From assembly GCA_027490255.1 (NCBI GenBank), contig JAIXYM010000010.1:1-64000 (forward strand): a stretch of DNA of 64,000 bases. The letters are read 5' to 3'. Below, one piece after another: positions 19,989 to 61,073 of the stretch. The position numbers and the translations under genes are program-made. The stretch's first letter is position 1, and each line of letters starts with the position of its first letter. This DNA is from Oxalobacteraceae bacterium. Lineage in GTDB: Bacteria; Pseudomonadota; Gammaproteobacteria; Burkholderiales; Burkholderiaceae_D. The notes beneath the pieces were generated by a model, which made no database searches, had not been told where the DNA came from, and saw only the letters and a list, made by a program, of their open reading frames with translations.

Positions 19989-20057
19989 TGAGAGGCAGAG
20001 ACGACTTGTTGAAGTAGCTTCGCCTTAAAAATTACCGAAGGGGTTGGAGGCTAAACG

Positions 20058-20141
20058 AAAGACGCTGGATCCCGGCCCGCGCCGGGATGACTATGGAAGG
20101 TCTGTTGGCCTCAAATTAATCATCAGCTGTCCAGCGTCTTT
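20058..20141. repeat. Palindromic repeat element (REP or MITE-like)
   Basis: An 84-base structure between mnmH and ppiD. The outer arms are a perfect 12-bp inverted repeat (20058-20069 with 20130-20141). Just inside the left arm is a perfect 8-bp hairpin, ATCCCGGC pairing with GCCGGGAT at 20069-20088 with a four-base loop. The GCTGGATCCCGG..CCGGGATGAC core is the type of extragenic palindrome that occurs in many copies in proteobacterial genomes. No coding frame is present. Copy number cannot be seen from one window. Confidence 0.75.
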
Positions 20142-54336: not shown

Positions 54337-55248
54337 CTATGGCCGCAGGCCGGAATAGCCGCTGAGGGCCAGCTGCAGCTTGGCCGAGTCTGACTGAACA
54401 CGGCACACAGCGCCGACTGGCAAGGTCAATTTGTCTCGCGTGTGGCCAAAAGGCAGTCCTTGCAGCACAGGTACAGGCAACAGATCTCTCAGGCCAGCCA
54501 GCATGGCTTCAAAGTCATAGCCATTGTCATACTCACTGAGGCGGTAGCCCGAAAAATCCCCCAGAATCACCGCCTGCTGGCGAGCCAAAACACCGGCATG
54601 CAGAAGCTGCAACAACATGCGTTCTATACGATAAGGATGCTCGTTCACATCTTCGATGAAGAGAATCCCGCCCTCCACGGCCGGCATCCAGGGTGTACCA
54701 ATGAGATGGTTGATCATGGACAGATTACCGCCCCATAATTTTCCCTCGACATCAACGCTGGGGTTATCAAGCGCTGAAATCTCAGCCGTCATCGGTCCGT
54801 TCAGACATTGCCAAAAACGCGACTCCGTGAATTCACTGATATCCGCTCGACTAAAATCATCGCAGATCATGGGTCCGGCAAAACTAACCGCACCAGTTTT
54901 TGCCAGTAAACCCAGATGCAAGGCGGTGAAATCGCTATGCCCAATAAAATGTTTTCCACTGTCTGCCAGCAATCCAAAATCAATCGTCGGCAGAAGTCGC
55001 GACAATCCATAACCACCCCGCAGAGCAATAACGATCTCCACCTCAGGATGCCTGGCCGCATCATGGAGTTGTTGCAATCGATCCGCATCACTGGCCGCAA
55101 AGCGCTGATACTTTTTGAAGGTGCTACAGAAATCATGCACCTGATGTCCCTGCGCACGCAGTCGTGTGGCCGCACGATTTAAAGCCTCAGGATCAGCTGC
55201 ATAGCCGCTGGGGGCCACAATAGCAATGTGTCGTGATGTTGGTGTCAT
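54337..55248 (-). CDS. ldcA: Murein tetrapeptide LD-carboxypeptidase LdcA (S66 family)
   Basis: Cytoplasmic serine peptidase that trims the terminal D-alanine from recycled murein tetrapeptide. The 303 residues have the nucleophile S105 in GHSDFTAL, the glutamate in [15 protein letters not shown] and the histidine in [14 protein letters not shown]. The ATG at 55248 lies in the last copy of an 8-bp tandem repeat and has no evident Shine-Dalgarno. It lies downstream of the queE-queD-tadA genes. Confidence 0.92.
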
Positions 55249-55276
55249 GGGCTTATGGGCTTATGGGCTTATGGGC
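55247..55276. repeat. 8-bp tandem repeat, about 3.75 copies, at the ldcA start
   Basis: The octamer ATGGGCTT is repeated three times in full plus six bases, immediately upstream of and including the ldcA start codon (on the minus strand AAGCCCAT units end in CCCATG). Confidence 0.9.
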
Positions 55277-55354
55277 GTACGCTACAAAATATCGTGAGGT
55301 GGGGCGTGATGTAAGGCGTCATGGTGGATAGCCTGATGATTTTTTTAATCTGTT

Positions 55355-56274
<920 letters not shown>

Positions 56275-60719: not shown

Positions 60720-61073
60720 TTACTTGGCTTTCAGGCACTCGCTCATGAATTTCTTGCGCTCGTCACCTTTTTTGCCATCGGCTTCCTTGTTGCAGGTTGC
60801 CATTTTGTTCTGCTGCGCGCTGGCTGGCTTCTCTGTCGCTGCTGGTGCGGCTGGCTTGTCTGTCGCTGCTGGTGCGGCTGGCTTCTCCGGCGCTGCTGGT
60901 GCGGCTGGCTTCTTGCTCAGACACTCTTTCATGAAAGCCTTACGCTCGTCACCTTTCTTGCCAGTGGCTTCCTTGTTGCAAGTCACCATCTTGTTCTGCT
61001 GCTCCGTTGCCGCTTCAGCAACAGGTATAAATCCCCACGACAGCAACGCTATGGCCGTAATAATGAATTTCAC
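60720..61073 (-). CDS. Secreted PsiF-repeat protein, two repeats
   Basis: A 117-residue periplasmic or secreted protein. The start is a GTG at 61073, four bases after AGGAGG; longer frames have no ribosome site. Residues 1-21 form a signal peptide ending in VAEA. Two PsiF-type repeats (QQNKMVTCNKEATGKKGDER and QQNKMATCNKEADGKKGDER, each followed by a FM-x-ECL helix) flank a linker of three EKPAAPAAT-like units. PsiF in E. coli is a phosphate-starvation gene of unknown function. Confidence 0.82.
   Translation of the reverse strand: MKFIITAIALLSWGFIPVAEAATEQQNKMVTCNKEATGKKGDERKAFMKECLSKKPAAPAAPEKPAAPAATDKPAAPAATEKPASAQQNKMATCNKEADGKKGDERKKFMSECLKAK
60822..60911. repeat. 27-bp tandem repeat in the PsiF-like gene
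   Basis: Three full copies (60822, 60849, 60876) and a nine-base partial copy of a 27-bp unit encoding a nine-residue Ala/Pro linker. Copies differ at a few bases. Confidence 0.9.

Follow-up and report, generated by a model that had tools for sequence, protein, structure and literature searches.

Does the octamer tandem repeat that runs into the start codon of ldcA in this Oxalobacteraceae genome switch expression of the gene, or is it a young repeat in a spacer under little constraint? The stretch analysed, a 64,000 bp segment referred to here as the window, had been the subject of an original prediction, made from the sequence, which proposed that slippage in the repeat might make expression of ldcA phase variable.

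The octamer array and its surroundings

On the minus strand of the window the gene order is queE, queD, tadA, ldcA. The genes, the spacer and the repeat are as follows.

54337..55248, minus strand: ldcA, muramoyltetrapeptide (LD-) carboxypeptidase, 303 aa (equivalog NF008424)
55355..55825, minus strand: tadA, tRNA adenosine(34) deaminase, upstream of ldcA on the same strand
55249..55354, minus strand: tadA-ldcA spacer, 106 bp, of which 24 bp are added repeat relative to four sister species
55247..55276, minus strand: perfect tandem array of the octamer AAGCCCAT (minus-strand sense), 3.75 copies (TRF)

The product of ldcA scored 406.9 bits against a cut-off of 378 for the NCBIfam equivalog NF008424, which identifies it as LdcA (PRK11253). 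Across the five species compared below, 225, 251 and 112 of 290 columns are invariant at codon positions 1, 2 and 3 of ldcA, respectively, with the gene ends excluded.

When applied to the window, TRF reported a repeat with a period of 8, 3.8 copies and 100 % matches at exactly 55247-55276. The array is made up of the last 28 bp of the 106 bp spacer plus the A and T of the ldcA start codon (ATG at 55248-55246), with which it ends. Nearly four 8 bp copies directly at the start of ldcA had been predicted, and this description is borne out. The matching run of the array, defined as the array length minus the period, is 22, the longest among the perfect arrays of the window (periods 4-30). First-order Markov resampling of the window, carried out 40 times, gave a longest matching run of 8-12 each time, and a chance origin was rejected, as no resampling exceeded 12. 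Pooled, the 40 resamplings contained 50 arrays with at least three copies (all periods 4-30). The array also fits the definition of a simple sequence repeat (SSR), namely units of 1-9 bp, an occurrence above chance and, for octamers, at least three units, the last being the threshold given in Table 2 of PMC2651432. The source genome consists of 166 contigs, and misassembly of the array is unlikely because 30 bp is short. By TRF score (60) the array is second in the window; the highest score, 163, belongs to an imperfect 27 bp tandem repeat at 60822-60913 (3.4 copies, 93 % matches).

Comparison with sister species

LdcA was present in 35 of the 56 related genomes searched. The four closest genus members, L057, L058, L059 and L060, share 92, 86, 85 and 83 % LdcA amino acid identity, respectively, with the window. 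They are metagenome-assembled genomes (three Oxalobacteraceae and one Burkholderiales), and the comparison, for which their spacers were aligned with that of the window, is between species, with one genome per species.

Each of the four sisters has one copy of the octamer at ldcA, and each is exactly 24 bp, or three units, shorter than the window. The single copy is TAAGCCCATG in L057 and L060, with one base changed in L058 and three in L059. Because all four have one copy and are shorter by exactly 24 bp, the array is most likely a recent expansion by slippage, and the sequences are most simply explained if the three units were added after the split from L057, the nearest species compared. 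Slippage, as one half of the original prediction, is therefore supported. The spacer has also acquired other small indels, and the distance from the ATG of the upstream mini-ORF described below to the ldcA ATG is 37, 50, 62 and 50 nt in L057, L058, L059 and L060, respectively, and 74 nt here.

Two adjacent exact units were found in only one of 21 genus genomes, namely the source genome, and there only at the ldcA site. A genome-wide family of the octamer was rejected, as only two further sites (two mismatches) were found in the source genome versus three for a reversed-pattern control, and two exact units are absent from every other of the 21 genomes. No second copy of the array junction was found in the viral contigs searched, as expected. 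The case for a duplication hotspot at ldcA starts is weak, with arrays in 2 of 75 related loci and in 18 of 2029 control windows drawn from the same loci (161 bp around the match start). One of these two loci is in another genus member (L067:1982-2009, G019) and has a perfect 14 bp tandem duplication at the ldcA start that includes the start codon; its first ATG opens a 5-codon frame that ends on the second ATG (ATGA).

Perfect arrays elsewhere in the genome

Perfect arrays with periods of 1-60 were collected from a sample of the source genome (G000) comprising 40 stretches and the window, 594,750 bp in total. The sample contained 10 with a matching run of at least 13 and five with a run of at least 20, the latter corresponding very roughly to 26 when scaled to 3.1 Mb. 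The ldcA array ranks second by matching run, after an intergenic perfect 14-mer array of 4.14 copies (L158:7082-7139), and fourth in total length, at 30 bp, among the five with a run of at least 20. Four of these five, including the ldcA array, lie between predicted ORFs and the fifth is inside a long ORF, where ORFs are those of at least 100 aa from a simple longest-ORF selection, not an annotation. Short perfect arrays are thus a recurrent feature of the genome, and what sets the ldcA array apart is its location and not its kind; on present evidence it is a young tandem repeat of an ordinary sort.

An intergenic perfect array of the heptamer GGGCTTG (3.86 copies) is located at L162:13486-13512, and comparison with three sisters yielded one shorter alignment and two that were broken. 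A dispersed repeat with CCGGGATGACG and CGTCATCCCGG arms was seen at L160:4437-4664, with a partial copy in the window at 20054-20124. A query that included it had at least 53 matches in its own genome and at least 55, 30, 41 and 43 in G005, G012, G018 and G017, respectively, a few of which represent the neighbouring gene. This repeat looks REP- or MITE-like.

Expression signals at the ldcA start

The original prediction also stated that ldcA has no recognisable ribosome site, and this was confirmed, as the best anti-Shine-Dalgarno duplex in the approximately 35 nt preceding the ATG has an energy of −0.7 kcal/mol. In none of the five species does the corresponding region of approximately 35 nt include a Shine-Dalgarno pairing stronger than −0.9 kcal/mol. 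As the missing ribosome site is common to all five species, the repeat is not its cause. A simple scan of 55100-56100, for promoters of the sigma-70-like type only, found none versus a mean of 0.7 in shuffled sequences. In the same kilobase there are three terminator-like sites, counting both strands, versus 1.1 expected, and one of them is on the minus strand inside the end of tadA (55428-55413).

Whatever the copy number, neither the ldcA ATG nor the sequence immediately preceding it differs. Because the array sits before the ATG, copy number never shifts the ldcA frame, and there is no on/off frame switch. Translation of ldcA from a start further upstream, through the array, was rejected, as the array introduces a TAA in frame ahead of the ATG. 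The in-frame TTG that the four sisters have 15 nt before the ldcA ATG has a TAG after it here.

These observations bear on the second half of the original prediction, namely that the array is hypermutable and that the level of LdcA switches in the population. Known repeat systems provide some encouragement for this, as do the young age and perfect copies of the 8-mer array and its position right at a start codon. In PMC2651432, the octanucleotide SSR ATTATTTG between cmkB and pdxS of Haemophilus influenzae is, like the ldcA array, an intergenic 8 bp repeat beside metabolic genes, and it varies from one to six units among strains. However, the variation at ldcA is between species, the H. influenzae repeat lies between divergent genes and not on a start codon, and its use is itself called uncertain in that source. 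The heptamers of hmw1A and hmw2A in H. influenzae are also upstream repeats, and their number is described in PMC2651432 as thought to modulate expression, but they are approximately 100 bp upstream and within the promoters, whereas at ldcA no promoter was recognised in the sigma-70-like scan. A likeness in function is seen in pgp2 of Campylobacter jejuni, a peptidoglycan LD-carboxypeptidase gene which, according to PMC5133587, varies at homopolymeric tracts. Those tracts are within the gene and lead to frameshifts, whereas the octamer precedes the ldcA ATG and causes none. By analogy, the H. influenzae octamer and pgp2 are precedents, not evidence for the ldcA locus. With only 3.75 copies, an unaffected reading frame, no sigma-70-like promoter recognised in 55100-56100 and an array in only one of 21 genus genomes, phase-variable expression is very improbable, and this half of the prediction is unsupported.

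In the open-licence PMC literature, no title among the matches listed concerned the array at this locus, which is no proof of absence. For LD-carboxypeptidase with phase variation, the matches were to Campylobacter by title or abstract. For ldcA with tandem repeats or slipped-strand mispairing, 'ldcA' appeared in none of the matches listed, and the family name was missing from the matches listed for phase variation or simple sequence repeats in Oxalobacteraceae. No match was found there for repeat copy number together with ribosome binding site spacing.

Predicted folding of the start region

The energy predicted to open the ldcA start region, calculated on 100 nt pieces, is 3.7 kcal/mol with the three extra units and 6.5 kcal/mol with none, versus 5.2-7.2 kcal/mol in the sisters. 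This suggests that the start region may be more open with the array, and with a lower opening energy an effect on expression is possible. One reading would be that the G-poor repeat provides a less structured landing leader and so raises translation of ldcA in the absence of a Shine-Dalgarno site. However, the first two units account for most of the predicted gain (6.5 to 4.0 kcal/mol), the energy rises again to 4.5 kcal/mol with four units, so that the series is not monotonic, and the energies are predictions for 100 nt pieces, with a single species concerned. We consider an effect of this kind unlikely, if slightly less so than a phase switch.

A candidate mini-ORF in the spacer

Three further features of the spacer are relevant to how ribosomes might reach ldcA.

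55269..55322, minus strand: candidate mini-ORF MTPYITPHLTIFCSVRP, with its TAA stop inside the repeat, at a distance of 20 nt upstream of the ldcA ATG
55316..55327, minus strand: 12 successive columns invariant in five species, CCACCATGACGC, around the mini-ORF start (alignment)
55332..55334, minus strand: AGG, weak Shine-Dalgarno-like, 9 nt before the mini-ORF ATG (anti-Shine-Dalgarno pairing)

The mini-ORF start, with AGG 9 nt before it, is present in all five species, and the pairing at AGG amounts to −5.6 kcal/mol in L057 and to −2.5 kcal/mol in the window and the other three sisters. All 12 columns at the mini-ORF start are invariant versus 67 of 157 third codon positions in tadA, and at the latter rate a given 12-column run would be expected about 4 times in 100,000, a figure that is arithmetic and not a formal test and is taken before counting several dozen possible placements. 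The conserved block suggests that the spacer may not be wholly free of function. In L058, L059 and L060 the mini-ORF stop overlaps the ldcA ATG (ATGA), and in L057 it is 4 nt before the ATG. In the window, the TAA arises where the first added unit abuts the ancestral copy. Sequences and coordinates of L063, L065 and L071, genus members that are more distant, show the tadA stop overlapped by the ldcA ATG, an arrangement consistent with translational coupling to tadA, versus the longer tadA-ldcA spacer in the five-species group.

The mini-ORF may feed ribosomes to ldcA, which has no site of its own, and the added octamers would then move the stop away and turn LdcA down. As derived from the sequence, the steps would be an overlap with no added unit, a stop made by the first unit at a gap of 4 nt, and a shift of 8 nt with each further unit, to 12 and 20 nt. 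The sisters L058, L059 and L060 resemble the ATGA-overlap termination-reinitiation pairs described in PMC10666635 in having an upstream stop on the ldcA start, but the upstream frame here is a candidate mini-ORF and a 20 nt gap replaces the overlap. In PMC10666635, the range used to predict coupling places the upstream stop at about −8 to +10 nt relative to the start of the second gene, and coupling by termination-reinitiation is reported to be weaker or gone at distances like 20 nt. The gap of +20 nt falls outside this range and marks the limit of a zone, 11-20 nt, set aside there as gene-specific. Gaps of 2, 14 and 38 nt were measured in Escherichia coli; at 38 nt the loss was 80-90 % for two pairs and complete for one, but at 14 nt one pair still had 60 %, and work with long-range coupling is also cited. 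Should the mini-ORF be translated, its coupling to ldcA would be expected to be weaker after the expansion, which is a testable idea and not a result.

Against this, a 17-codon frame could well be open by chance, the second codon of ldcA itself supplies the TGA of ATGA, the frame changes in L057, and folding predicts the opposite effect via a more open start region. Reinitiation that depends on the added units is accordingly rather unlikely, though it is the least unlikely of the alternatives considered; it allows a fixed or a variable copy number and is compatible with the explanation that we prefer.

Origin and consequences of the array

The array is probably a young, species-specific expansion by slippage in a weakly constrained spacer, which either leaves the LdcA level unaffected or changes it in a fixed way, and not a selected phase switch. 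On this explanation, an octamer present in a single ancestral copy would have expanded by replication slippage, with little change to the ldcA start codon or the sequence immediately preceding it. The gene would be read, without a Shine-Dalgarno site, from a transcript common with the upstream genes, which is assumed from gene order alone. Any effect of the expansion on the LdcA level would be fixed in the lineage, via leader structure or the distance to the mini-ORF stop, or there would be none.

A bolder and distinctly improbable proposal is that the slippage-prone octamer acts as a step dial for reinitiation, in which the first added copy would end the leader ORF with the TAA at a unit junction, and each further copy would move this stop 8 nt away from the ldcA start and lower the murein-recycling enzyme in a graded and reversible way. 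If copy number does set the distance from the stop of a leader ORF to the start, repeat-driven control of expression would be possible without a frameshift or a change in promoter spacing. The same control, if true, could be searched for wherever short arrays precede start codons that have no Shine-Dalgarno site.
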